IMG/VR virus record: IMGVR_UViG_3300035701_000127 | Coordinates: 1-36,999 of that record | Direction: 5' to 3' (one strand) | DNA length: 36,999 nt | Source of the DNA: a virus | Shown here: piece after piece, positions 2,404 to 36,999 of the stretch | Layout of the letters: every line of letters begins with the position of its first letter | How positions within the stretch are numbered: position 1 is the stretch's first letter | The notes under the pieces: model-generated | Database searches by the model: none | The model's input: the letters and a program-made list of their open reading frames with translations, nothing else | Told to the model about the DNA's origin: nothing | Made by a program: the position numbers and the translations under genes

Positions 2404-2787
2404 CTACGTCGGCACGGTCAGCCACGCGCCGTTCCGTGCTCGCGTGATCCAATGCCAGCTCGCCCAGCCGCTGTATTGCTCCGCGGCGATCTTGAACTTT
2501 GCGCGCGCGTCGTCCCGACAGAACCCGCCCTTGACCTCGTGGAACTCCAGCCTCACGCGCGGCTCCCGCGGCTGTCCCGGCGTCCACCAGGTCGGGTCCG
2601 GCAGCGATCGGATGACGAGAAAGTCCGGCGTGTACCACGTGTTCCTCGCCAGCCGCAGCTTCACGGCCTCGTACTTCCACTCGACGATCTCCCCGATCCC
2701 GCGTAGAAGGTCGAGATGCGTTCCATACTGGCGCTCCAGCCCGTTCATCCGCGTGCTCGGCTGCGTCCAGACGAACGCCGTGGTCAT
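2404..2787 (-). CDS. DUF1064-like PD-(D/E)XK nuclease, possible junction resolvase
   Basis: This 127-residue protein has the ordered nuclease elements E18 (GLERQYG), D55 (WYTPDFLV), and E84 with K86 (EFHEVKGG), followed by a basic RDDARAKFK helix. That is the PD-(D/E)XK layout of DUF1064 and related small phage nucleases, which are thought to act on branched DNA. The start at 2787 overlaps the replication initiator stop as ATGA. The neighbourhood (initiator upstream, recombination genes before that) supports a role in resolving replication or recombination intermediates before packaging. Structure-specificity is inferred from the family. Confidence 0.65.
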   Translation of the reverse strand: MTTAFVWTQPSTRMNGLERQYGTHLDLLRGIGEIVEWKYEAVKLRLARNTWYTPDFLVIRSLPDPTWWTPGQPREPRVRLEFHEVKGGFCRDDARAKFKIAAEQYSGWASWHWITRARNGAWLTVPT

Positions 2788-3809
2788 GCCTCCGCCCCCT
2801 TCCGTCCGTTCCGTATCCCGCGCCGGCGCTCGTCCTCCAGCGTCCGCTCTACCACGGCTTGCGCGTAGGCGATCGGGTCCGCCGGTTTCGCTTTCAGCGT
2901 CGCTCGTAGCGCCTTCCGCGCCACGTCCGATACCAGCTTCTCGTCCGCCCAACGTCGGACTTGTTTCATGATCGGCGCGTTCGGGTATTCCGCCTGCATC
3001 CGGCTCAGCAGTCTCTGCAACTCCGCCTTCTCCGTCTCCGCCCCATCTCCCCCCGCACCCCCCTCTCCCATTCCCAAACCCAAACCCATTCCCAAACCCA
3101 CTCCCATTCCCAAACCCACTCCCATTCCAGGGTCTGCGCCCAGCCCTGGCGTCAGCCCTGGTGCCAGCCCTGGCGTCAGCCCTGGTGCCAGCCCTGGTGC
3201 CAGCCCTGGTGCCAGCCCTGGTGCCAGCCCTGGTGCCAGCCCTGGTGCCAGCCCTGGTGCCAGCCCTGAGCCTAGCTCTGGCTCTAGCCCTGATTGCAGG
3301 TCCGGCGCCAGCCCTGAGTCCCTCCGGCTCCTATGCCTTCCGTCTGGTCCGACCCCGAACACCGGTCCGAATACCTCCTCGAACGTCCCTACGAACGCTG
3401 GTCCGCGCTTCGCCATCGCCTCTGCGATCTCGTGCAGAATCCTGCTCCTCAGCTCGCACGCCGGCGCCCGTCCCAGCTCCCGCGGCCAGGTTCGCATGAC
3501 GTTCTGATTCGCCGGCGGGTTGTAACGCAACGCGCGCGGAATCCAGATAATCCGCGCGCGCCAGTCGGACACGGCCATCCCGCGTCCGGCGATCTCCTCC
3601 CAGCAGCGTCCGAACTCTTTATTCGTCCATCCCAGCGCCTCCGCCGCTGCGCACTGCCCGGTCAGTATCAGTCCCGGCACCTGCGTTGTCGCGGGTCCGG
3701 TCAGCAGCCAGACCCACAGCCATTGTCCGCTCGCCGGCGGCGCGCTGAGCGCTTGGAACTTCTCGTCCCCCCACATACAGACGTCGATTCGTCGATAGAA
3801 AGACCCCAT
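2784..3809 (-). CDS. Replication initiator-like protein with repeat linker
   Basis: The protein is 341 residues. The N-terminal 120 residues (starting GSFYRRIDVCMWGDEKFQ, with TGPATTQVPG and RALRYNPP) resemble the winged-helix N-terminal domain of phage replication initiators and replisome organisers. Residues about 163-223 are a Gly-Leu-Ala-Pro tetrapeptide repeat, and residues 229-248 alternate Gly with Leu, Met or Val. The last 80 residues form a helical domain (LQRLLSRMQAEYPNAP onward) of the kind found at the C-terminus of such initiators. The start is ATG at 3809, 31 bases after the helix-turn-helix gene. The repeats may double as the origin at DNA level (see repeat features). DnaA-like or helicase-loading roles are inferred, not shown. 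Confidence 0.65.
   Translation of the reverse strand: MGSFYRRIDVCMWGDEKFQALSAPPASGQWLWVWLLTGPATTQVPGLILTGQCAAAEALGWTNKEFGRCWEEIAGRGMAVSDWRARIIWIPRALRYNPPANQNVMRTWPRELGRAPACELRSRILHEIAEAMAKRGPAFVGTFEEVFGPVFGVGPDGRHRSRRDSGLAPDLQSGLEPELGSGLAPGLAPGLAPGLAPGLAPGLAPGLAPGLTPGLAPGLTPGLGADPGMGVGLGMGVGLGMGLGLGMGEGGAGGDGAETEKAELQRLLSRMQAEYPNAPIMKQVRRWADEKLVSDVARKALRATLKAKPADPIAYAQAVVERTLEDERRRGIRNGRKGAEA
3067..3123 (-). repeat. Ten-tract G-run array with exact 6-base period (G-quadruplex prone)
   Basis: On the + strand, CCC occurs at 3067, 3073, 3079, 3085, 3091, 3097, 3103, 3109, 3115 and 3121, always with three-base spacers. The coding strand is therefore (GGGNNN)10. It lies inside the replication initiator gene and encodes alternating Gly and Leu/Met/Val. 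Four successive GGG tracts with three-base loops meet the usual intramolecular G-quadruplex pattern, and here there are ten. The codons are unusual for this phage: Leu is TTG rather than CTG, and Gly is GGA or GGT rather than GGC, as expected if the DNA sequence itself is selected. Confidence 0.85.
3142..3321 (-). repeat. 12-base tandem repeats inside initiator gene (candidate iterons)
   Basis: Fifteen units of 12 bases run head to tail. The + strand consensus AGCCCTGGTGCC is exact in eight units (3154, 3178, 3190, 3202, 3214, 3226, 3238 and 3250), and the outer units diverge. They encode the Gly-Leu-Ala-Pro repeats of the initiator. Lambdoid and several other phages place origin iterons inside the initiator gene itself, so these repeats are plausible initiator binding sites. 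A purely protein-level flexible linker is the alternative. Confidence 0.8.
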
Positions 3810-4199: not shown

Positions 4200-5291
4200 C
4201 TACTCCGCGCGCTCCAGCTTCACGGTATGGCGCATCGCCTTCCCGCGGTACTTCTCGCGCACGTCCTTCGGTACGTCATAGACCGTGGTCTCGCCTATCA
4301 GGTGCCGCGCCTGTCCGATCCCGTCTGCGATCCAGACCGCCGGCTCCTCGATCCCTGCTCCCTGCTCCAGCACCCATGCGCGCACGGTCTCACGCGCTTT
4401 GTCGTACTCCTTCGCCGTTGGTTCCAGGCGCAGCGCCGTCGCCATCGCCTCCAGAATCCGCGGCTCCGTCACGATCCCTCCCCCTTGCCCGCCGCTCATC
4501 GGCGGGTGACAGATCCCCGCGAAGTCGCATCTAGCGCACACCGCCGGCTGTCCCTCCAGGCGCGCCGGCATCAGCTCCTCGCGGTCCGCCGCCGTGCTCG
4601 CCTTCGGCCACAGCTCTATCCGCGCCTCCACGTCCTCCAGCTTGACCTCGATCGTCCTCCACTCGTCCTCGTCGAACGGCGCCGGGATGCACTTGATCGC
4701 CCCGCTCAGCTTCCCCATGAGCACGAATAGCCCATCGCACGCGGTCCATCCATTGCGTGCTCCGGCCAGCTCGTAGCTCCAGATCTGCGCCGGATAGCTC
4801 TGCCACCACGGCTCCGGTCTCGCCCGCATATCCGCGAGCGTGTCCACCTGCTCCATCACGTGGTCCGAAATGCCTTTGATCTCCACGATCAGCGGCTTTG
4901 CCGCGCGCCGGCCGTTCTCCCGCGGCGGTTCCAGCAGGCGGTCCACCTTCCCGCTGATGTTCGGCTCCAGCGTGAACCGGTTCATCTGCTCCGGCAGCTG
5001 GCAGAGGGTCCAGCCCGTGCCGTCCAGCGCCGCTTCCAGGCGGCGTGCGGCCACGGTCTCGAGCGCGCGCCCTAGCGCGAAGATCCTCGACAGCCGCGCG
5101 TCCGGCGGCGTCTGCTGATCCTGGTGCGTCCGGCGGTAGAAGATATGCCTCGCGCACGGGTGCCCCACGAAAGACGGCCAGTTGCTCCGCGCCGGGTAGC
5201 TCGTAGCCTCCCGAATCGCCAGCTCCTGCTCCGCTATTCGTAGCGCCGCGGCCGCGGTCTCCCCGTCCATCCGTTCCGGTTCCGCGTTCAT
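4200..5291 (-). CDS. Cas4/RecB-like PD-(D/E)XK exonuclease
   Basis: This 363-residue protein shows the RecB-nuclease motifs in order: E78 (GRALETVAARRLE), D117 (ISGKVDRLLE), E137 and K139 (LIVEIKGIS), and Q169 (YPAQIWSYEL). Cysteines C46 and C252, C255 and C261 (CARCDFAGIC) match the four ligands of the iron-sulfur cluster in Cas4/AddB-type nucleases. The catalytic residues all appear intact. The gene overlaps the preceding Cys-rich gene by ATGA and lies downstream of a probable single-strand annealing protein. Together they suggest a phage recombination pair in which the nuclease makes single-stranded ends. There is no CRISPR array or Cas1, so a spacer-acquisition role is not suggested. Confidence 0.8.
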   Translation of the reverse strand: MNAEPERMDGETAAAALRIAEQELAIREATSYPARSNWPSFVGHPCARHIFYRRTHQDQQTPPDARLSRIFALGRALETVAARRLEAALDGTGWTLCQLPEQMNRFTLEPNISGKVDRLLEPPRENGRRAAKPLIVEIKGISDHVMEQVDTLADMRARPEPWWQSYPAQIWSYELAGARNGWTACDGLFVLMGKLSGAIKCIPAPFDEDEWRTIEVKLEDVEARIELWPKASTAADREELMPARLEGQPAVCARCDFAGICHPPMSGGQGGGIVTEPRILEAMATALRLEPTAKEYDKARETVRAWVLEQGAGIEEPAVWIADGIGQARHLIGETTVYDVPKDVREKYRGKAMRHTVKLERAE

Positions 5292-5587
5292 CGGGTCGCC
5301 TCCTTCGCAGCGTCGGCATCGTCGCCGTTGCTTTGCCGCTTGTCAATGTCCGATTCCTTCTCCTGCTCGTCGCACGCCGGGCAGGTTTCCATCTCCACCG
5401 CGCACGGCTCGGGCGCCTCGATCTTCAGCGCGCGCCTCACCTGCTTCGCCAGCTCCACGTCCGGCCGTATCACCCCCTCCGCCTTGCACGTCCGGCACCG
5501 GAAATGCACGCCTCCCGCCGCCACGAGCGCGGCGTGCTCCGCCCGCTCATCCCGGCACTTCTTGCGGTGCAGGCGCAGCTCCTTCAT
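5288..5587 (-). CDS. Cys-rich small protein between annealing protein and nuclease
   Basis: This 99-residue protein has two CxxC pairs (FRCRTCKAEG near residue 31 and ETCPACDEQE near residue 69) plus a His/Cys-containing N-terminus (HRKKC). The C-terminal 25 residues are very acidic and probably disordered. It is coupled by ATGA overlaps to both neighbours, so the three proteins are probably made together. The zinc-ribbon appearance and the context suggest a nucleic acid-binding accessory of the recombination genes. No named family is recognised. Confidence 0.65.
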   Translation of the reverse strand: MKELRLHRKKCRDERAEHAALVAAGGVHFRCRTCKAEGVIRPDVELAKQVRRALKIEAPEPCAVEMETCPACDEQEKESDIDKRQSNGDDADAAKEATR

Positions 5588-6525
5588 GCCGCCTCGCCCG
5601 CCGGCGGCGTGCCCAGCGTCGCCGGTACCGGCGCCGGCGTGTACGTCCCGGCCAGCTCCGCCGCCTCCATCGGTCCCATCGCCGTCAGCCGTCCCAGCAT
5701 CGCCGCGGCCGCTCGATCGGTCAGCCCGAGGATGCTCCTCCGGTCCGGGAACTTCCCCGTCGGGTCATGCGTCAACTTCGCCAGCGCGTCCGGCCAGAGC
5801 GTGCGGTCTGGGATCAGCTTCGCCAGCCGCGCCCTCAGCTCCCGGTGCGCCGTGCTCGCATTCTCCAGCTGGGACGTCGTCTCGCTCCCGGCGTCGGGGT
5901 ACTTCGTCCCCGTCGGTCCGGCGCGCCGCTCGATCTTCCTGACCCCGTCGATCCACCCGGCCGGCGTCAGCGCCTTCAGGTCGTCTATCGACAGTCCCCG
6001 CAGTCCCAGCGCCGCGGTGATTGCCCGCCGCTTCCACGCGCTCTCCGCCGCGGCTTTCACGTCCAGCGGGTCGATCTCCTCGTTCCTCCCCTTCGCCCCG
6101 CTCCTGAAGAAGCCGTCCGCGGCGCGTCCGGCCTGGATCCCCTCCAGCTCCACCGGCGGGAACCCCGGAATCTGCACGGAGATGTTTCCCGTCACGATGT
6201 ACCCGAACGGCGGCTCGTGAGCCGGCCACTCCTGGTATGCGACGTCCGTTATCTGCATCTTCCACCGCAGCGGCAGGCGCGTGAGCAGCCGCTCCGCCCC
6301 CACTCCCTGGAGCAGAATCCCCGTCCCGTCTCCCGCGACGTCGATCCAATCCTCCGGCCGCGTAGCGCGCACGGCGTACCGGCGCAGCACGTCCAGCAGC
6401 TCGATGTGCCTCTGGAGCGTTCGGTCGGCCTGCTCCAGTGAGTAGTCCACGCGCTTCTGCACGTCGACCGGCATCTCCATCTCCCCGGCCAGCAGCTCCA
6501 CGCTCCGTTCCCCTTGCTCCGTCAT
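5584..6525 (-). CDS. Probable single-strand annealing recombinase
   Basis: The protein is 313 residues, starting at ATG 6525 (ATGA overlap with the small gene upstream). The central part (about residues 70-185) has the beta-rich GYIVTGNISVQIPG region, a charged GAKGRNEEIDPLDVKAAA stretch and a helix ending ITAALGLRGLSIDDLKALTP. Helices of this type, ending in GLR-L, are typical of phage single-strand annealing proteins, though I cannot place it in Erf, RecT or Rad52-like groups. The C-terminus is Pro- and Ala-rich. The gene order annealing protein, Cys-rich protein, RecB/Cas4-like nuclease strongly supports a recombination role. The residue-level assignment is an inference. Confidence 0.55.
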   Translation of the reverse strand: MTEQGERSVELLAGEMEMPVDVQKRVDYSLEQADRTLQRHIELLDVLRRYAVRATRPEDWIDVAGDGTGILLQGVGAERLLTRLPLRWKMQITDVAYQEWPAHEPPFGYIVTGNISVQIPGFPPVELEGIQAGRAADGFFRSGAKGRNEEIDPLDVKAAAESAWKRRAITAALGLRGLSIDDLKALTPAGWIDGVRKIERRAGPTGTKYPDAGSETTSQLENASTAHRELRARLAKLIPDRTLWPDALAKLTHDPTGKFPDRRSILGLTDRAAAAMLGRLTAMGPMEAAELAGTYTPAPVPATLGTPPAGEAA

Positions 6526-6650
6526 CCTTCGCCTCCTTGCCGGCCGGCCGGCTGCCACGGTTTTACGCTTAGCGTCGCATCGTGCATCCCGGCCGGCCCG
6601 TTGTGCGCGAACATCGCCTCGCCCAGCGCGGTCCTAGCTATCGCGTCCAT
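6522..6650 (-). CDS. Small unknown protein, 42 residues
   Basis: This short frame runs from ATG 6650 to a TGA at 6522 that overlaps the next ATG as ATGA. It overlaps the end of the upstream gene by 17 bases. AAGGGAG lies about eight bases before the start. The protein begins MDAIARTALGEAMFAHNG, with no membrane segment or motif. The tight stop/start coupling on its downstream side and its own ribosome binding site are the reasons to call it, and it fills an otherwise empty 108-base gap in a fully packed operon. Confidence 0.5.
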   Translation of the reverse strand: MDAIARTALGEAMFAHNGPAGMHDATLSVKPWQPAGRQGGEG

Positions 6651-10715: not shown

Positions 10716-11972
10716 CTATGTGCCTCCTTCGATCCCGACCTTCCATGCCTGGATCTCGGCATGGTACTCGTTCCCGCTCCCGTCCCCGATGCCCGTCGCC
10801 ACGCCGAAGCCGTTCGTCGCGTTCGCCGTCGTCACGTACTGATTAAGATACAGCTCCCATGCGGTCGCGCTCGTGAACCGGCCCGACACTGAGACGTGCC
10901 CAAAGACGTCCAGCGCCGTCGGCGCGTACCCGGCAGTCCCGTAGCAATAGGTTCCGTTCGTCGCATCGTATAGGCGCAGGCGCGTGAACCCGATCTTGTA
11001 GCCGTACGCGCGTCCCTGCACCTGATACGTCCCGGCCGGCAGGTACAGCCGGCTTCCGCCGACCACCGTGCAGATCCCCGCCGTGTCCACGTATTCCGCC
11101 AGCGATGCCCGAAGCTGCCAGCCCGTCGACGCCGCGCCGATCTGATTCGCGCTCGCCGCGACCGCGCGGACGACGACGTGCGGCCGCTCGGCCAGTGCCA
11201 CGGCGTGCAGCCCGTCCAGCGTGTCGCCGTCCAGTGTCGATCCGGCTCCGTCGTTCGCCTCGGTCCAGACCTTCCACGGTTGGGTGCCCGCTTTGACGTC
11301 CGTCCCGTCTCCCTGCGGGTTGAGCGTCATCAGCGTCGCAGCGTCCGCGGCCGTCAGCGCCTGGAGCGAGGACGGTCCCAGCCGCATCTTCGCGGCGCCC
11401 GCGTCCCCCAGCTGGAGCGTGTTCGCCGCCTGCGTCAGCAGCGCGCTCGGTCCACGGAGGCTGCCCGTGAAGATCGGGCTTGCGGCCGGCAGCACGCCCC
11501 AATCCGTCCGGAACTGCGCCAGCCCGGTGCTCGACCCGTACGTCCGCGCCAGCTCCTGCCACATCCCCGTGCTCGCCCGGTACAGCAGGATCTGATGCTG
11601 GAGCGTGTCCATCGTGAAGTCCTTCGCGCCGGCCAGATTCATCCGGCCATCCCCGCTCCCGGTCGCGTGCTTCACGACGATCGTCCGCGCGTCGTTGTTC
11701 GGCCTCAGCACGACGACGTGCCCCAGCTGCGCCGTCGTCCCGATGTTGACGAGATTCCCGGTGCTCGCGCTCGCGTTCGTGTCGACCACGTGGTACGCGT
11801 TGTCCACCTGGATCACTCCCGCGCTGTTGTCGCTCAGCGTTTTCAGCGAGTAGGAATCGCCTCCAGGGTTCGTCCGGATGACCTCCAAGATCACGTCCAG
11901 ATTGTCCCGCATGACGGCGTTCGTCGGACTCGTATGGAAGAACCCTGCGGACGGCAGTACGGTGACGCTCAT
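10716..11972 (-). CDS. Tail fibre / receptor-binding protein
   Basis: The protein is 418 residues. The N-terminal half has beta-rich fibre-like sequence with Asn/Thr/Ser, including the motif DTLDGLHA (about residue 250), a signature of phage tail fibre and side-fibre connectors. The C-terminal 150 residues (PHVVVRAVAASANQIG onward) look like a compact beta-sandwich of the C1q/TNF-like type seen at fibre tips. It follows the tail tip J gene by nine bases, the usual place for receptor-binding proteins. It probably contacts the host surface. The host receptor cannot be inferred. Confidence 0.7.
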   Translation of the reverse strand: MSVTVLPSAGFFHTSPTNAVMRDNLDVILEVIRTNPGGDSYSLKTLSDNSAGVIQVDNAYHVVDTNASASTGNLVNIGTTAQLGHVVVLRPNNDARTIVVKHATGSGDGRMNLAGAKDFTMDTLQHQILLYRASTGMWQELARTYGSSTGLAQFRTDWGVLPAASPIFTGSLRGPSALLTQAANTLQLGDAGAAKMRLGPSSLQALTAADAATLMTLNPQGDGTDVKAGTQPWKVWTEANDGAGSTLDGDTLDGLHAVALAERPHVVVRAVAASANQIGAASTGWQLRASLAEYVDTAGICTVVGGSRLYLPAGTYQVQGRAYGYKIGFTRLRLYDATNGTYCYGTAGYAPTALDVFGHVSVSGRFTSATAWELYLNQYVTTANATNGFGVATGIGDGSGNEYHAEIQAWKVGIEGGT

Positions 11973-11981
11973 CGTTCCCTC

Positions 11982-14900
11982 CTAGAACCCTCGGACGACC
12001 AGATCGACCGTCCCCGTGCAACGCGCTCCGGCGTCGTTATACCCTTTCAATAGAATCCCCGTCGTCGCGTCCATGTCCACGATCCGCACGTACGCCAAGC
12101 TCCCCGCCTCGCGGATGCCCACCACGCAGCTCAAGATCGCGAAGTACGTCTGCGTCAGCGGTATCCGGTCTCCGCCCGCGGCGGTCGTCAGCTCGACGCT
12201 GCTCACGACCTCGCGGATCGTCTGCCCCTCGTACGCCTCGGCGATGCGTTCCACCTCCGGCCGCACGGAGCCTCCCGTCGCGCGAATCCGCCATCGGACC
12301 GGTGCGTTGCTCCCTTCTCCCCCGATCAGCTCCACGCGTCCAGGGAATGGCAGCTCTCCGCTCCGGTCCGTCAGATCGGTCGGGAGTCCCGGCCCGCGCT
12401 GGTACGTCATGATCGGTTCGCCTCGCGCCATCGTCGGCGTCTCCCGCAGGTACGGATGCACCGCGAATCCCCAATACAGCCACGGCACGTTCGTCGTCAC
12501 CCATTCCACGTCCCCATAATAGGTACTCGTGCTCCAGAACATCGCCCCATCGGCTCCGAAGAACGGCTCGTACTCGTCGCCCCAAAAAGGCGCGTTTTCT
12601 CCTCCCGCCGTCTCGATCCCCCGGATGTTCCCCGTGATCGCGTCGTACTCTCCCTGAATCAGCGTCCCGTCGTACCACCCGGAGCCGTGGTACTCGTAGG
12701 TCAGCATCGTCACCGTGTCGTACGCCGGGTTCCGCTCGATGTAGCAGCTCACGGCGTTCGCACTCTCGATCCCGCTTGTGTCCACGGTCTTGAGCAGCAG
12801 CGTCAGCGGTCCCTCCGGCAGCTGCTGGATCGGGAACCCCCACGCGTTGATCAGCCCGTCCCCCGGTATCGCCGGGTTCGCGCCTTCCCATTCCGTATTC
12901 GCCGCTTGTCGGTAGCGCAGCCGGACGCCGGCGAAGTCGATCGCCATCTCGTCCAGCGCCCATCGGATCGTTCCGTCGTCGTCCACGCCGATCCAGAACG
13001 GGTCGGCCGGCGGAGACGTCTTTCCGATGACTTCATGTCCCGTGCAGGCCACGACCCATCCGCTGACCAGTCCCCACGCGGAGACCGTTTGCAACTGGAC
13101 GTCGTACTCCTGCCCGTCCTGTACCGGCATGACCCACGCCTCGGTCGCCATCCCCTCGAACGCCGCCATCGGTATCCACTCGTTCTCGATCCCGACGATC
13201 GTCTGCCGATACCGCACCATCAGCCTCACGGCCGGCGAGAACGTCCCCGTCTCATACACCACGCCTATCACGATCCGGCTTTGCCAGGTCCCGTCCGTCC
13301 CGCGCAACAGACAGCTCTCGTCCGATCGAACCGCCATCGCGCGCGGCGCCGGCGGGTACAGATCCTGGAGCCGCGGTCGGACGCTGATATGCGGGTCGTA
13401 CGGTGGTACCGGTCCCGTCGCGTGAACCTCCGGCGCGGCGTCCAGCGCCGTGATCAGCGCCGTCATGTCCTCGCGCGGCGTAATGTCCTTCACGATCAGC
13501 TGTACCGTCTCGCTCCCCAGCTGCCCGAACACCACGAGATCGTCCTCGTGCGGGTGCAGAATCGCCGCCTTCCCAATCGCCGGCAAGAACTCCAACGTCG
13601 TGTAGAATCCCACGCCAGGGTTGGCGACCTCGCAGCTCAGCACCTCCCCCACGTGTCCGGCGTTCGTCAGCCGTATGCGGACGCCGTAATGCGCGTTCGC
13701 GTCGTCTATCTCGACGGCGTTGTTGAGGGTGATCCCGCGGTACTCCCCTGGACTCTCCGCGAAGTCCACCTCGAACACGACCGTCTTGATCCGCCCGAAC
13801 CCGATCCCGAACATCGGGACGTCATGGGTCAGCTCTACCGTGTCTCCGCGCGTGAAGGTCAGGTGCTCCACCGTCGTCTCGAACGTATGCACCTCCGGCC
13901 GCAGCCGGTTGCAGAGCAGCAGGTATCGCCCCTGCTTCCACGCCTGCTCGTAGGATGTGCAGCCGGGTAGCGTGACCTCCTCGTACCGCGTCGCGGCGAC
14001 GGTCCCCGGCTCATCTCCCAGCTGGCTATACCCATCGTCGAACGCGTAGACCAGATCCTCCAGGTAGTCGTACTCCGCGTTGTCGAACCGAATCCGCAGC
14101 GCGTGCGGCCGGTCCGCGAACGCCTTGCTCCCCCGGTAGTTTCGGCTCGTCATCGGCGTGAACACGTTCGCCGGCGTCGCGCTCGGGTTGTCCATCACGA
14201 TCGAGAACTTGCCGTCTATCTCCGCCGGCGTCGCGCGCCCGCAAGCTGCGATCAGCGCCAGCGCCTCGCGCGGTCCCATCTCCCGTCCGAACGCGTAGTC
14301 CACCGTCCACGCGTTCACCGTGCACCGCGCTGCCCAAGTCTCGAACCGCTCCAGGTCGATCCTCGCGTCCGTCAGCCCGTATTCCAGTCCTCCGCCCTTG
14401 AGGATTCCCATGTACGCCCACGCCGGATTCCGCCCGTTTTCCACCGTCGCCGCTGCCCATCCCCCGCCCGTGCTCCAGCTTGGTAGCGGCGCGCTCACTA
14501 GCACGCTCACATTGTCCAGCATCCCGCCCAGCTGATCCGTCGCTTTGATCCTCAGCGCCAGCGTCGCGATCGGCCGCGCCATCGGCCCGAGAATCTCCGC
14601 GTTGTCCGCCTGGATCGGATCTTCGTTATGCACGCTCCTCAACGCGGTCCAATAGCAGTCCGCGGCCGCGGCGTACGTAGGCCAGTCCCCCGTCTCCTCC
14701 GCGATGTACCCGATCCCGACGTCGTATCGTTGCCCGCTCCCGCCCGTCATATGCGCGTCCAGCCATCCCTGCGTTATGCGGAACCCCTTCCTGAACGGAC
14801 TCGCCCGCAGCTCCCGCACGAGCGATTCTCCGGCTCCTGACGGCCAGTAGTGCCAAGCCTCCTGCCCGGCCACGCTCACCCGAATCACGACCACGACGAG

Positions 14901-31941: not shown

Positions 31942-33528
31942 TCAAGAGGCAGGTCGTAGCAGCGCGCGTACGGACGGGTCGATGAACGTCCCCTCCTCGC
32001 TATTCACCGCGGCTCGGTACACGGCCATGATCGACGCGACGATCCCGTCTATCCGCTCCCGGCTCTTTGCCTTCGTCGGCTTGATCGCTTCCGTCGGGTC
32101 CGTGTCGATCGCCACGTTGTCCGCGTTCCATCTCAGCGGAGGGTTCCCCCCGTGCCGCAGCCGGCCGCTCAGCACCGCGGCGTAGAACTCCTTCGCGGCC
32201 GGACTCATGTCCTTGAACCCCTGCCCATGCTGGACCATCGTGAACCCTTCGGCCTCCAGCGCCTCGACGAGCATGGCGCTCCCCCACCGGTCGAAGGCGA
32301 TCTCCTCGATGTCAAAGACCTCCCCCAGCGCCCCGATCGTCCGAAGGATATGCCCGTGACTCACCACGTCTCCCGGCGTCGGCTGGACGAACCCGTTCTT
32401 TATCCACCGGTCGTACGGCACGCGGTCCGCCCGCACCCTCCGGTCTATCCGCTCCGCCGGAACCCAATACCACACGAGCAGATACACCGGGTCTCCGGCG
32501 TGCTCCGGCGGGAATGCGAGCGCGAACGCCGTCAGGTCCGTGGTGCTCGACAGGTCCAGCCCTCCGTAGCACACCCGGCCTCGGAGCGTGCGCCAGTCGA
32601 ATGGCTCTCCGCACGCGTCCCACCGGGTCATCGGAATCCACCGCACCTCCTGCGACGTCCACTGATTCAGGTACAGCCGGCGGAACGTGTTCTCGAACGA
32701 CGGGTCCGCTTTCGCGCGCGCGCACTCCCCCCGCAGAAAGTCCTCCGACACGCTGATTCCCAGGTTCGGGTTCGCGCCCCTCCAGGTCTCCGGCGCCTGC
32801 CAGTCGGCATCCTCCGGCGCGGCGTAGATGCGCGCCAGCAGCCGGTCGTCCTCGTATCCGGCCTTCGGGTCCAGCGACCGCCGCGCCTGCTCGTGCAGGT
32901 TCCAGCAAAGGGTTTCGTGGCCCACTCCTGCGGTCGTGATCGCCCACGTCATCGGCTGCTGCCTGCTCCCGGTGCTGCTCGTGAGCACGTCCCACAGCTC
33001 CCGGTTGGGTTGCGCGTGCACCTCGTCGAACAAGATCCCGTGCGCGTTCAGCCCATGCTTCGTCGGAACGTCGGAGGAGAGGACGCGGTAGGTTGAGTAG
33101 GTGTGGGGCACGAAGATCGAATGCCGGACGGCGCGGCTCTTGGCGCTCAGCCGTGGCGACTGCGATCTCATCATCGCGGCCAGCGAGAACACGATCCCGG
33201 CTTGCGCCCGGTCCGCGGCGGCGCTGTAGATCTCCGCTCCCAGCTCGAAGTCCGAGAACAGCAGATACAGCCCGACCCCGGCTGTCAGCGTGCTCTTACC
33301 ATTCTTACGCGGTACTTCCAGGTAGACGGTTCTGTACCGGCGTGTCCCGTCCGCCTTCCGTTTCCAGCCGAACGCCTCGCGGAGCAGCTCCCGCTGCCAC
33401 GGCGCCAGCTCGAACGGTTTCCCGGACCACTGTCGCCCCTTGACGTGGCGCAGGTATAGCGGGAAGAACGTGCAGACCCGGTCCGCCTCCTCCTGGTCGA
33501 AGTAGTACGCGTCCGGTTCACAAGCCAT
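31942..33528 (-). CDS. Large terminase subunit (HK97-type)
   Basis: The protein is 528 residues. The ATPase motifs are clear: a Walker A-like EVPRKNGKST (residues 71-80), Walker B GILFDEVH (D168, E169) and the coupling motif TSSTGS near 184. The C-terminal nuclease has D325 (GGLDLSSTTD), D413 (AFDRWGSAML) and D494 (RERIDGIVAS), all present. It cuts and pumps DNA into the head. The start is ATG 33528, overlapping the small terminase gene by 11 bases. Confidence 0.9.
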   Translation of the reverse strand: MACEPDAYYFDQEEADRVCTFFPLYLRHVKGRQWSGKPFELAPWQRELLREAFGWKRKADGTRRYRTVYLEVPRKNGKSTLTAGVGLYLLFSDFELGAEIYSAAADRAQAGIVFSLAAMMRSQSPRLSAKSRAVRHSIFVPHTYSTYRVLSSDVPTKHGLNAHGILFDEVHAQPNRELWDVLTSSTGSRQQPMTWAITTAGVGHETLCWNLHEQARRSLDPKAGYEDDRLLARIYAAPEDADWQAPETWRGANPNLGISVSEDFLRGECARAKADPSFENTFRRLYLNQWTSQEVRWIPMTRWDACGEPFDWRTLRGRVCYGGLDLSSTTDLTAFALAFPPEHAGDPVYLLVWYWVPAERIDRRVRADRVPYDRWIKNGFVQPTPGDVVSHGHILRTIGALGEVFDIEEIAFDRWGSAMLVEALEAEGFTMVQHGQGFKDMSPAAKEFYAAVLSGRLRHGGNPPLRWNADNVAIDTDPTEAIKPTKAKSRERIDGIVASIMAVYRAAVNSEEGTFIDPSVRALLRPAS

Positions 33529-33988
33529 AGCGCGAGTGAATCGGGTCTCCCGCTTCTAGCGCGGCTCCCGCTCCCGCGGCGCGCGGCCGGCTCGTCGGAC
33601 TCAGCCCCAGCTCCCCGATCGCCCGCAGCATATCCCTGAACGTGCTTTGCACCGTGCTCAGATACGGGTTCTGGTACAGCCCTCCGCTCTTACTCTGGAT
33701 CAGCAGCACCGGCACGGCGCGCAACGCGTCCTCCGCCTGCACCCATCGGCCGTACGCGGCGCAGTACGCCGCCAGCGCGGCGCGGTCCAGCTGCGTCAGC
33801 AGCCCAGCCTCGTGCATCGCCTTCGCGATCCGGTTCCACTCCCTCCGCCCGTCTCCGTAGACGTGCCTCGGGCATCTCGGCAGCGTGATCCGCTCCGGCC
33901 TCGGGTCCGGCGGCACCGGCCGGTGCCCTGGATTGCCCTCCAGCAGTTTCAGCACTGTCGGTTTCGGTCTCCGTCCCCTTCTAGCCAT
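33518..33988 (-). CDS. P27-family small terminase
   Basis: This 156-residue protein starts ARRGRRPKPTVLKLLEGNPG, followed by ITLPRCPRHVYGDGRREWNR and YCAAYGRWVQAEDAL, a good match to the P27 small terminase family. ATG 33988 has GGAGGG upstream and overlaps the radical SAM gene by eight bases. It recognises phage DNA for packaging. Cos or pac cutting cannot be decided from this sequence. Confidence 0.85.
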   Translation of the reverse strand: MARRGRRPKPTVLKLLEGNPGHRPVPPDPRPERITLPRCPRHVYGDGRREWNRIAKAMHEAGLLTQLDRAALAAYCAAYGRWVQAEDALRAVPVLLIQSKSGGLYQNPYLSTVQSTFRDMLRAIGELGLSPTSRPRAAGAGAALEAGDPIHSRYGL

Positions 33989-35411
33989 CGGTCCCTCCGT
34001 CGATCCTCCAGAACGGCGTGCTCGCCGGCCGGCGCCGCTCCAGCCCTCGATACCGGTACGTCCGGTGCCCATCCTTCCAGCCGGCCGGCACGAGCGCTCC
34101 CTGGAAATAGCGCACGACCCCGCGTTCGCTCTGGAGCGAATCCCACGCCTTGTGCAGATGGTCCGCCCATCTCGCGTGCCGGCTGTCGAACTTCTCCAGC
34201 GGTCCGGCTCCGAACGCCACGATCCCCGCCATCTTCGCCTCGTGCGCCCAGGCTGGTATCGCGTCCGCGGCCGTCACCTCCCGGCCCGTGTCCCTCGCTA
34301 TGACCAGCGCGTTCGTCGCGTTCTCCGTCTGCCAGTTGCCGAACACGGGATCGGCCGGGTCGATCCCGCAGCAGCACCCGTAGTCGGTCAGTTGCTTCCA
34401 CACCGGGTCCGACACCCCGATGGCCATGCCCAGCTCGTGCGCCTTCTCCGCCACCGCGTGCATGATCTGCTCCGTCCATCCCGCGGCCGGTCTCGTGCAC
34501 GCCGTCCTCCGGCTGGTCCGGCCGTAGATCTGCCTCAGCGGTCTCCCGAGAATGCTCTCGATCTCCTCCCACCGCTGCCTCAGCAGCTCGGTCATGGCTC
34601 CCGGCATGAACGCGACCTCGTAGCTCACGGCGCGGGCTCCGGCGTCCGCGGCGCGTTCCAGCAGCTCCGCCCATGCGCGCGGGTGCTTCGGCGTCGCGTC
34701 GCTCGCTCCCGGCAGCATCGGCCGCAGCCTCAGGCTCGTCCGCACCCCCTCCCGGCTCAGCTTCTTCATCGTCGCCAGCCGGCGCGTCGCGTTCGGCGCG
34801 CGTCGGTCCAGCCGTTCCAGCAGCTCGTCGTCCGGCGTAATCAGCGAGAACGCCACCCATAGCAGGTCCGCCCGGCGCCGGATAACGTCCAGGTAGTCGC
34901 GCTCCAGCAGCAGGTCGCCCTTCGTGCTCATCCGCACCGGCTGCCCATACCGTTGCGCCAGCTGAAGGAACCCCAGCAGCCACCCCTGCTGCCGCTCGAT
35001 CGTGTCGCACGGGTCGGTCAGCGCGCCCAGCTGCACGGCCGTCGGGTATCCCCCCGCGTTCCGCCGGTCGTACCTCAGCGCGCGCCGGAACAGCTCCCCC
35101 TGCTTCCCGCCTCCTCCGGCGAAGATCCGCTCCAGCATCCGCAGCGGCGTCTGCCCGATCGGCTTCACCCTCGCGCTCCGGTGCTCCACCAGATTGTCCG
35201 AGAAGCAATACAGGCACCCGTAGGCGCACGCTGTATGACTGTCGATGCTCACCGGCAGCGCGCAGTCGAACCCGTCGCTCGTGAACCGGATGCCTCCATA
35301 GGCGCGCAGCTGTCCCCGCGCCGGCGCGCACCGGGTTCCGTCGGCGCACCCGTGGCAGGTCGCGCACGGATTCAGCCGGTCGGCCCGCAGGTCCAGCGGC
35401 GTCGTTCTCAT
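33981..35411 (-). CDS. Radical SAM enzyme, spore-photoproduct-lyase-like
   Basis: The protein is 476 residues from ATG 35411 (ATGA overlap). The SAM/iron-sulfur motif is C62-x3-C66-x2-C69 (HTACAYGCLYCFSD). After it come GALTDPCDTIERQQGWLLGF, STKGDLLLERDYLDVI and LRLRPMLPGASD, which resemble the radical SAM group containing spore photoproduct lyase and PA0069-like proteins. Extra cysteines stand at 16, 19, 22 and 28 and as a triple Cys at 346-348, perhaps for a second cluster or hydrogen-atom transfer. It is tied to the zinc-ribbon and small terminase genes. A DNA repair or base-modification role is inferred. It is not QueE-like, whose Cys spacing differs. Confidence 0.75.
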   Translation of the reverse strand: MRTTPLDLRADRLNPCATCHGCADGTRCAPARGQLRAYGGIRFTSDGFDCALPVSIDSHTACAYGCLYCFSDNLVEHRSARVKPIGQTPLRMLERIFAGGGGKQGELFRRALRYDRRNAGGYPTAVQLGALTDPCDTIERQQGWLLGFLQLAQRYGQPVRMSTKGDLLLERDYLDVIRRRADLLWVAFSLITPDDELLERLDRRAPNATRRLATMKKLSREGVRTSLRLRPMLPGASDATPKHPRAWAELLERAADAGARAVSYEVAFMPGAMTELLRQRWEEIESILGRPLRQIYGRTSRRTACTRPAAGWTEQIMHAVAEKAHELGMAIGVSDPVWKQLTDYGCCCGIDPADPVFGNWQTENATNALVIARDTGREVTAADAIPAWAHEAKMAGIVAFGAGPLEKFDSRHARWADHLHKAWDSLQSERGVVRYFQGALVPAGWKDGHRTYRYRGLERRRPASTPFWRIDGGTDG

Positions 35412-35632
35412 GCGCGCTCCTCCTCCTCGTCTACCTCGCGCTCCCGTTGCTCCGCATCGACCAGCCCGCGGCCGCGGAGGCAGACCCACTCCGTATCGCA
35501 GGTCTCGCAGATCCATATCGTCTGCTCCTTCTCCTCCTTCCCGATCGGCCGGTAGGTCTCGACCCGGCGTACCAGCCCGGTCAGCATCTCCCCGCAGGTC
35601 GGACAGCGCCGTTTCTGCTTCGCCAGCCTCAC
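35408..35632 (-). CDS. Small zinc-ribbon protein
   Basis: The protein is 74 residues. CPTC (residues 10 and 13) and CETC (residues 42 and 45) form a Cys4 zinc ribbon, and the C-terminus is strongly acidic and helical. GTG 35632 overlaps the ParB-like gene as GTGA, and the next gene starts with an ATGA overlap. The tight coupling suggests work in the same pathway as the radical SAM and ParB-like proteins, perhaps as a DNA- or protein-binding adaptor. Confidence 0.65.
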   Translation of the reverse strand: MRLAKQKRRCPTCGEMLTGLVRRVETYRPIGKEEKEQTIWICETCDTEWVCLRGRGLVDAEQREREVDEEEERA

Positions 35633-36309
35633 GCCTCCTCCACGCCCGCCGTCCGGCGCAGAGCGTCCAGCAGCGCGCCGGCGTGCAGCTCATGCGGCCC
35701 GATGAAGTAGCTCCTCAGCACCTCCCGCGCCTCCTCCCATCCCGCGGCGTCGCCGTACCACCGCGCGTAGATCCACGGCCGGTCATCCGGTGCCGGCTCC
35801 GGCGGCATCTCCCCGGCGGCGGCTCCCAGCGCGGTCGCCGGGTCCGGCTGCTGGAACTCTCCGGCCGCGAACAGCGCGAGCACGTCCTTCACGTCCGCCG
35901 GCGTGTATCCCGTCGCCGCCAGCTCGTCGTCCTTCCCCTCCAGCTCCCCGAACGCCTCGGCTAGCGCGGCTAGGTCCATCGTCGCCATCCGCGCGAGCGC
36001 GTTGTCGGCTATCAGGTCCGCGACCTCCTCCGCCTCCGTCGCGTATTCCTGCTCGTCGACCGGCACGGCCTCCAGCCCCAGCCGGCGTGCCGCCTCCAGC
36101 ATCCCGTGTCCCCTCGTGACGAACCCGCTCCTCAGGCTCACGACGATCGGCTTGCGCCATCCCTGGACGCGCAGCGCCAGCGCCAGCGCCTCCACCTGCT
36201 CCGGCGGGTGCGTATTCGGGTTCAGCGGGTGCTCCCGCAGGTCCGCCGGCGTGCGCATCGTCCCCCGCTGGCACTTCACCTGGATCCGGCCCAGCTCCGG
36301 CTCCCTCAT
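35629..36309 (-). CDS. ParB/sulfiredoxin-fold protein 2
   Basis: The protein is 226 residues. I place the start at ATG 36309 (ATGA overlap); longer in-frame starts are inside the paralogue. The core has PLNPNTHPPEQV (residues 29-40), GWRKPIVVSLRSG (50-62), RGHGMLEAARRLGLEAVPV (66-84) and ADLIADN (97-103), the ParB/Srx superfamily pattern. The Arg of the usual GHGR motif is Met here. The C-terminal block WIYARWYGDAAGWEEAREVL and GPHELHAGALLDALRR is shared with the paralogue. Such proteins can act as nucleases or as CTP/ATP-using DNA clamps. The substrate is unknown. Confidence 0.7.
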   Translation of the reverse strand: MREPELGRIQVKCQRGTMRTPADLREHPLNPNTHPPEQVEALALALRVQGWRKPIVVSLRSGFVTRGHGMLEAARRLGLEAVPVDEQEYATEAEEVADLIADNALARMATMDLAALAEAFGELEGKDDELAATGYTPADVKDVLALFAAGEFQQPDPATALGAAAGEMPPEPAPDDRPWIYARWYGDAAGWEEAREVLRSYFIGPHELHAGALLDALRRTAGVEEA

Positions 36310-36938
36310 GCTCCCCCCTCCGCGCGCCGCAGCCGGCTCAGCAGTCCCGGCCCGTCGACCTCGTGCGGTCCCCGCATCAGGTCGCCCAGCAGCCGGCGCG
36401 CCTCCTCGTACGCCTCCGGGTCGTCCTTCCACTCCGCGTAGATCCACTTCTCGTCCCCCGCCGCGCTCCCGCCGGTCCGCAGCTCCTCCGGCACGTCCGC
36501 CAGCAGCTCTCCCGCCGTCGGCGCCGTCCCCAGCCGCGCGCTCGGCACCGCCGTGGCTCTCAGCGCCTCCTCGTCCCCTGCGAGCGCGCCCAGCGCCTTC
36601 CCCAGCTTCACCGGGTCCATCACCGCCATCGACGCCAGCCGGTTATCCGCCAGAACGTCCGCCAGCTCCTCCGCGTCGCTCCCGTATTCTTGGCGGTCGA
36701 TCGGCACGCGGATCAGCCCCATCGCTAGCGCGGCCTCCCGCAGCCCGTGCCCGCGCGTTATGCAGCCGCTCCTCGTGCTCACGACGATCGGCTTGCGCCA
36801 TCCCTGGTAGCGCAGCACGTCCTCGAACGCCTCGCGCTGCTCCGCCGGGTGCCGGTTGGGGTTCCGCGGGTGCGGTTTCAGGGTCCGCGGGTCGGCTGTG
36901 TCCTCGTGCTCGCATCGGATCGGGATCTCCGTCGCCAT
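36306..36938 (-). CDS. ParB/sulfiredoxin-fold protein 1
   Basis: This 210-residue paralogue of the next gene has PRNPNRHPAEQ (residues 24-34), GWRKPIVVSTRSG (46-58), TRGHGLREAALAMGLIRVPI (61-80) and ADVLADN (93-99). The shared C-terminal block is WIYAEWKDDPEAYEEARRLL with GPHEVDGPGLLSRLRR. In the GHG motif the next residues are Leu-Arg instead of Arg-Leu, so the usual nucleotide-contacting Arg is displaced. GGAGGAGG precedes the ATG. It is the first complete gene of the cassette upstream of terminase. Confidence 0.7.
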   Translation of the reverse strand: MATEIPIRCEHEDTADPRTLKPHPRNPNRHPAEQREAFEDVLRYQGWRKPIVVSTRSGCITRGHGLREAALAMGLIRVPIDRQEYGSDAEELADVLADNRLASMAVMDPVKLGKALGALAGDEEALRATAVPSARLGTAPTAGELLADVPEELRTGGSAAGDEKWIYAEWKDDPEAYEEARRLLGDLMRGPHEVDGPGLLSRLRRAEGGA

Positions 36939-36999
36939 AATATCCTCCTCCTGGCGGTTTTGCCCCCCCCCTGGTAAAACGCGGTCGCGCGCGTCTAGG
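36939..36999 (-). other. Leader with eight-base G-run at the right edge
   Basis: The 61 bases before the first ParB-like gene hold a run of eight C's on the + strand (36963-36970), hence G8 in the transcript, between two imperfectly complementary arms (GCGGTTTT and AAAACGC on the + strand). AGGAGGAGG for the first gene follows. Nothing identifies a promoter, and the upstream gene is outside the window. Confidence 0.5.

Follow-up and report, generated by a model that had tools for sequence, protein, structure and literature searches.

Genes of the cassette

The window analysed here is the whole of virus record IMGVR_UViG_3300035701_000127 from IMG/VR (36,999 bases). On its minus strand it carries a cassette in which two ParB-like proteins (ParB-A and ParB-B), a small protein with two CxxC pairs and a radical S-adenosylmethionine (rSAM) enzyme are encoded directly upstream of the terminase genes TerS and TerL. 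No end repeats were noted, and the window is therefore possibly a fragment. Consecutive reading frames overlap by 4 bases between ParB-A and ParB-B (ATGA, 36306-36309), between ParB-B and the CxxC protein (GTGA, 35629-35632) and between the CxxC protein and the rSAM (ATGA, 35408-35411), by 8 bases between the rSAM and TerS (33981-33988), and by 11 bases between TerS and TerL (33518-33528). These coordinates confirm the coupling of four genes claimed in a preliminary description of the window, but the cassette described there as fused to terminase is joined to it by overlapping genes and not by fusion. Read directly from the sequence, AGGAGGAGG ahead of ParB-A is a strong ribosome site, and the family matches make the identity of TerS and TerL certain.

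Table 1. Features of the cassette and adjoining terminase genes in the window.
Feature	Coordinates	Strand	Assignment and matches
Shine-Dalgarno-like AGGAGGAGG ribosome site	36944..36952	-	5' of ParB-A, cassette start; direct sequence reading
ParB-A, 210 amino acids, ATG start	36306..36938	-	PHROG 498/620, E 1e-20/7e-18; ParB N-domain and C-terminal W-[IF]-Y-x-E-[WY] domain
ParB-B, 226 amino acids	35629..36309	-	PHROG 498/620, E 1e-30/4e-26; ParB N-domain and C-terminal partner domain of ~65 amino acids
Small CxxC...CxxC protein, 74 amino acids, GTG start	35408..35632	-	Probable zinc ribbon, accessory; sequence reading
rSAM enzyme, 476 amino acids	33981..35411	-	PF04055, 9.7e-8, over cut-off
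TerS	33518..33988	-	PF05119, 3e-22; phrog_83, 5e-39
TerL	31942..33528	-	PF20441, 4e-42; PF03354, 2e-23; phrog_9, 6e-167

The earlier domain calls were borne out by Pfam for the rSAM and by PHROG for the ParB proteins. Family scans of the small CxxC...CxxC protein gave weak matches only, so that it is called a zinc ribbon on the strength of its two CxxC pairs. The two ParB proteins, with 49% identity to each other, are tandem paralogues. Neither matched Pfam ParB_N, while both matched ParB PHROGs at about 1e-17 to 1e-30. The AlphaFold (AF2) model of ParB-B had a pLDDT of 84.5, and a Foldseek search with this model returned KorB/ParB/Noc structures, several of them CTP- or CDP-bound (best E 3e-7). 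By the PHROG and Foldseek matches, the proteins belong to the ParB superfamily and have the ParB N-domain fold. The position of the GERRxxA-type CTP motif is occupied by GHGLREAA or GHGMLEAA in these proteins.

The rSAM has its CxxxCxxC motif (C62/C66/C69) within the PF04055 domain and is a member of the radical SAM superfamily. Its other cysteines include an N-terminal quartet (C16/C19/C22/C28), C50, C305 and C346-C348 (GCCCG). Across 35 full-length rSAM sequences C62/C66/C69, C50, C305 and C346-C348 were invariant, and the N-terminal quartet was kept in 32-34 of the 35. The nearest NCBIfam model was rSAM_PA0069 (9e-26), below its cut-off. With the AlphaFold model of the rSAM (pLDDT 79, pTM 0.83, residues 61-83 of low confidence), the best PDB matches in Foldseek were spore photoproduct lyase (SPL; E 6e-5, TM 0.39-0.53, a moderate fold similarity) and also pyruvate formate-lyase activase. 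Searches of the rSAM against PDB sequences by phmmer and by profile gave no meaningful relative. The likeness to SPL noted earlier holds, moderately, for the fold and not as a family-level sequence match.

A tblastn search with the window rSAM gave no match in 50,697 phages. The rSAM of Bordetella phage FP1, called 'DNA repair photolyase', was found to be a remote relative (hhalign probability 94, E 1e-7). It shares 79% identity with a Pseudomonas phage M6 gene. Its neighbours in FP1 are TerS on one side and a gene with the annotation threonine dehydratase on the other, and a thymidylate synthase is encoded nearby. The extra cysteine motifs are missing from this rSAM, and the FP1/M6 rSAM is therefore a cousin and not an orthologue. 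Weak matches in faecal phages (MT835833, MT835521) were rejected as shorter rSAM proteins outside the window rSAM family. The rSAM of archaeal virus vir215, encoded near ParB and terminase, was rejected as a second example of the arrangement, being unrelated by hhalign. In that record (L042 2324-7078; Caudoviricetes sp. vir215, Methanomassiliicoccales), the unrelated rSAM lies just upstream of a ParB-TerS-TerL run.

The conserved pair and its position

Relatives were sought with IMG/VR pattern-plus-tblastn scans, first with an rSAM query and then with an 11-sequence alignment, and 35 viral rSAM loci were obtained (L numbers below). The same alignment found one cellular contig among 84,980 bacterial and archaeal species, from which it follows that the rSAM is essentially a virus family. 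A ParB-type partner was encoded directly or one gene upstream of the rSAM in 34 of 36 loci, and in the remaining two the contig begins at the rSAM. The pair was thus seen in every relative that has DNA upstream of the rSAM, which exceeds chance. Clustering of neighbouring open reading frames gave the partner, TerL, TerS, portal and Asn synthase as the only families present in at least 5 loci. The conserved unit is the pair of ParB-type partner and rSAM. It is smaller than the four-gene set, whose co-occurrence in other phages had been proposed as a check and which does not recur in its exact form. The refuting outcome named in the preliminary description, a lack of co-occurrence, did not materialise, but this applies to the two-gene unit and not to the four genes. 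The combination had been thought undescribed, and we found no published description of a ParB-rSAM-terminase module in the literature searched.

The other two genes of the cassette are local to the window. No homologue of its separate small CxxC protein was found in the other loci, and in L036 the ParB partner itself carries a fused zinc ribbon; in the window the probable zinc ribbon is an accessory encoded by a separate gene. An IMG/VR scan with ParB-B as query gave no relative, and the second ParB proteins of L009, L025 and L038 are of other kinds than that of the window, whose second ParB is a local accessory.

The N-terminal part of the partner is a ParB domain of the same sub-type as in phage ParB-methyltransferase fusions, and its C-terminal ~65 residues show, in the family alignment, a motif like nWFYVEYYgDe.rF..L....HEid..fF. 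In L017, L024 and L026 the partner consists of the C-terminal domain alone (88-109 residues). Because this domain can stand alone, what constantly accompanies the rSAM is the C-terminal domain and not the ParB fold; the domain probably serves as a docking piece for the enzyme.

The pair usually lies just upstream of terminase. For detection of TerL, one Pfam model missed nearly all relatives and PHROGs resolved most; in some relatives the first large downstream reading frame encodes a portal protein, an amidoligase or a methylase, not TerL. Among the 20 loci with TerL in hand, all 190 rSAM pairs were alike (median 52%) versus 42 of 190 TerL pairs, and the TerL of the window matched none. Since the rSAMs are alike and the TerLs mostly unlike, the module moves between phages with unrelated packaging genes yet keeps its place. 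In loci without an adjacent terminase, the cassette has genes for DNA polymerase, clamp-like proteins or RecT among its neighbours (L024, L017, L036, L031), so the tie to packaging proposed earlier holds for gene position only, some relatives having the cassette beside replication genes instead. The family B DNA polymerase of L024 is split by an intein with a LAGLIDADG domain (11256-14483).

Other ParB-associated enzymes were found in the same slot. Streptococcus phage EJ-1 has a ParB-methyltransferase fusion upstream of terminase, and Javan291 has ParB and TAGT beside it. Pseudomonas phage ZRG1 (L041 3992-5837) has, just before TerS and TerL, a ParB-N6/N4 methylase gene that overlaps one for S-adenosylmethionine decarboxylase, an arrangement that suggests an aminopropyl-type DNA modification.

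Accessory genes in related loci

Accessory families were searched for in 28 virus records; viral contigs may be partial, which limits the absences reported. Asn synthase (PF00733) was present in 5 of the 28 records and TAGT glycosyltransferase (PF20691) in 2, and none of these 7 genes is more than about 2.5 kb away from the rSAM. The chance of this joint placement is ~9e-7, assuming uniform random placement of genes. Two of the Asn-synthase proteins have a glutamine amidotransferase (GATase) domain and three are without it; CmoY homologues are of the same two kinds (PMC12783734). Among the 50,697 phage records, the L018 Asn synthase was matched best, in a tie, by the S-B43 'asparagine synthase', a gene of the CmoY locus with a class I and a C5 methyltransferase gene on its flanks. 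CmoY is a proven DNA amide ligase that attaches glycine to 5-carboxymethylcytosine, and ParBc proteins are reported in CmoY-type neighbourhoods (PMC12783734). The AsnB of L006 is 50% identical to that of phage TurkishDelight, where the gene order is ParB-ParB-C5 methylase-AsnB-class I methyltransferase; the order in L006 is ParB-AsnB-rSAM, and no C5 methylase was found in the L006 record.

Several relatives have further enzymes in or beside the cassette. The order in L009 is ParB-rSAM-Asn synthase-ParB-TAGT-TerS-TerL. Directly upstream of ParB-rSAM in L007 (857-7359) are genes for a methyltransferase, an RGP protein, a sugar-nucleotide epimerase and two glycosyltransferases, a possible sugar supply for DNA glycosylation. 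In L010 (10377-12886) genes for an Amidoligase_2 and a class II GATase lie downstream of the rSAM. The cassettes of L024 and L026 include an N6_N4 methylase; in L026 (9968-12251), whose virus also encodes a family B DNA polymerase, this methylase and a second rSAM follow the rSAM. A search for TET/JBP gave no match, and as its control matched nowhere either, it was uninformative.

Outside the cassette, a weak PD-(D/E)XK nuclease match was seen at 4200-5291 of the window, and the Pfam scan gave no match for the neighbouring genes at 5584-6558 and 2784-3809.

Proposed function and alternatives

We favour, with a probability of about 0.64, the reading of the cassette as a phage DNA-hypermodification module that would carry out the putative reaction outlined below. 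The circumstantial support comes from relatives that carry CmoY-type ligases, TAGT, glycosyltransferase and sugar-nucleotide genes and DNA methylases, and from the remote rSAM relative in an M6-type thymidine-hypermodification cassette. The radical-based DNA modification suggested in the preliminary description has thereby gained strong circumstantial support.

The ParB domain, perhaps acting as a nucleotide-gated clamp, would bind viral DNA, and the C-terminal domain of the partner would dock the rSAM, so that the enzyme is brought to the DNA. The [4Fe-4S] cluster bound by CxxxCxxC would cleave S-adenosylmethionine to give a 5'-deoxyadenosyl radical, and the radical would activate a base, most likely at the C5 or methyl position of a pyrimidine. 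A base side chain with an acid or hydroxyl handle would be installed or remodelled by the rSAM, whose extra conserved cysteines would bind zinc or one or more auxiliary clusters. The handle would then be amidated in some phages by the Asn-synthase ligase, or glycosylated by TAGT; in the window, as no second-step enzyme was recognised there, the finished mark may be no more than the handle, and the product the simplest one. Freshly replicated DNA would receive the modification at about the time of packaging, and the modification would conceal it from host nucleases. The analysis shows the pairing, the gene position, the companion genes, which include ligases and glycosyltransferases of types known to decorate bases in phage DNA, and the fold class. 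DNA as the substrate of the rSAM is held with the same confidence as the module itself, the acid or hydroxyl handle is a tentative proposal, and the pyrimidine target is put forward more tentatively still.

Several observations weigh against this proposal. The family searches recognised no ligase, glycosyltransferase or methylase in the window, and therefore the guilt by association comes from relatives only, most of which are likewise without such genes. The placement figure given above presumes uniform gene placement, the CTP motifs of the window ParB proteins are not canonical, and the likeness to the SPL fold is moderate, with the cluster loop of the underlying model at low confidence. The link to the M6 rSAM is remote, and the M6-type enzyme is without the extra cysteine motifs.

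Phage DNA repair, also named in the preliminary description, would have an SPL-like rSAM reversing UV photolesions, with ParB loading the enzyme on DNA before packaging. SPL is the best solved-structure match of the rSAM, and distant relatives in phages carry the annotation 'DNA repair photolyase'; however, the NCBIfam spore-lyase model was unmatched, the best model being rSAM_PA0069 below its cut-off, and the M6-like 'photolyase' gene corresponds to the rSAM of a thymidine-modification cassette (PMC9476957). The accessory genes encode ligases, glycosyltransferases and methylases rather than repair enzymes, and because such neighbours make no sense for photolesion repair, we consider this function unlikely. 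Slightly less improbable, but still doubtful, is that the rSAM modifies a protein in the style of ribosomally synthesised and post-translationally modified peptides, with the WFYVEYY domain of the partner, terminase or another virion protein as target and the Asn-synthase homologues acting on the same peptide. Peptide modification is known for many rSAM enzymes and for some Asn-synthase homologues, and the constant partner is a small domain able to stand alone (L017, L024, L026). Its C-terminal part, however, is conserved like a small folded domain and not like a leader or core peptide, and the TAGT, DNA methylases and ParB of the cassettes point to DNA.

Enzymes that modify phage DNA have often been repurposed from RNA modification (PMC12783734), and the rSAM might modify a tRNA or transcript, with neighbours that are borrowed RNA-modification enzymes. 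The ParB partner and the location next to terminase or to polymerase/clamp genes argue otherwise, no RNA-binding domain was found, and we regard an RNA substrate as very unlikely. The same low standing is given to ordinary moron genes, namely ParB-like late regulators and an unrelated metabolic rSAM hitch-hiking in a permissive site: the site upstream of TerS does take many different genes, but the pairing was seen in 34 of 36 loci with mostly unrelated terminases, and the reading frames overlap.

Known phage DNA hypermodifications mostly start from hydroxymethylated or carboxymethylated bases. An extension of the DNA-hypermodification reading, more speculative than the handle itself, is that a virus-restricted rSAM with a dedicated ParB-type guide might itself install the handle, as the primary step, directly on bases within the DNA polymer. 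It would thus replace a methyltransferase or a nucleotide hydroxymethylase, and the handle would be decorated by amide ligases and glycosyltransferases that are interchangeable. If true, a ParB-partnered rSAM acting on DNA would be a new type of first step, still-undescribed bases would be predicted in many environmental phages, and the presence of ParB-domain proteins beside many phage DNA-modifying enzymes near terminase would be explained in part.

Comparison with known systems

The CmoA-CmoX-CmoY system of Synechococcus phage S-B43 (PMC12783734) shares with the cassette the ParB-type proteins nearby and, in 5 relatives of the window, a CmoY-type Asn-synthase ligase, and the TurkishDelight ParB-ParB-methylase-AsnB-methyltransferase locus is a look-alike. 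The S-B43 system differs in that the carboxymethyl-installing C5 methyltransferase is not in the cassette, where the rSAM stands in its place, and the window is without the ligase. The C5 cytosine methylase family (PF00145), a feature of CmoX, was found in 1 of the 28 records (L010) and not in the window, and the 5-carboxymethylcytosine system was rejected on its absence from the other 27.

The M6 rSAM reportedly acts on amino-acid-bearing 5-hydroxymethyldeoxyuridine. The M6/YuA-type rSAM is of similar length, lies directly upstream of TerS in FP1 and shows remote homology over the rSAM core, but it is without the N-terminal Cys quartet or the CCC motif. With profile similarity remote and cysteine motifs differing, the window rSAM is not an orthologue of it. 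The M6-type thymidine-hypermodification cassette is listed with an rSAM (SN1_022) and a pyridoxal phosphate enzyme (PMC9476957). The M6 pathway also uses a thymidylate-synthase-like dUMP hydroxymethylase (PF00303), which was found in 1 of the 28 records, not that of the window, and the pathway was rejected on its absence from 27 of 28 records that may be incomplete.

The Dpd/7-deazaguanine and Dnd systems likewise have a ParB superfamily protein (DpdB/DndB) in a DNA-modification operon, but their other enzymes differ. The TGT-like transglycosylase PF01702 matched 0 of the 28 records, with controls matching 14 of 14, so that the 7-deazaguanine system was rejected as far as tested and the parallel drawn to it in the preliminary description is disfavoured. 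The cassette may work in a similar way to the 5-carboxymethylcytosine, M6 and 7-deazaguanine systems, but it lacks those of their defining features that were looked for. SPL has the closest solved fold and the same rSAM CxxxCxxC motif, at 16% identity; the window rSAM differs from it by extra N- and C-terminal Cys motifs, and NCBIfam gave no SPL family-level match, its hits being confined to PA0069-like and other rSAM models that scored below their cut-offs. The phage ParB-DNA methyltransferase fusions (phrog_498; EJ-1) have the same ParB sub-type and the same slot upstream of TerS-TerL as the cassette, in which the enzyme is instead an rSAM encoded by a separate gene.

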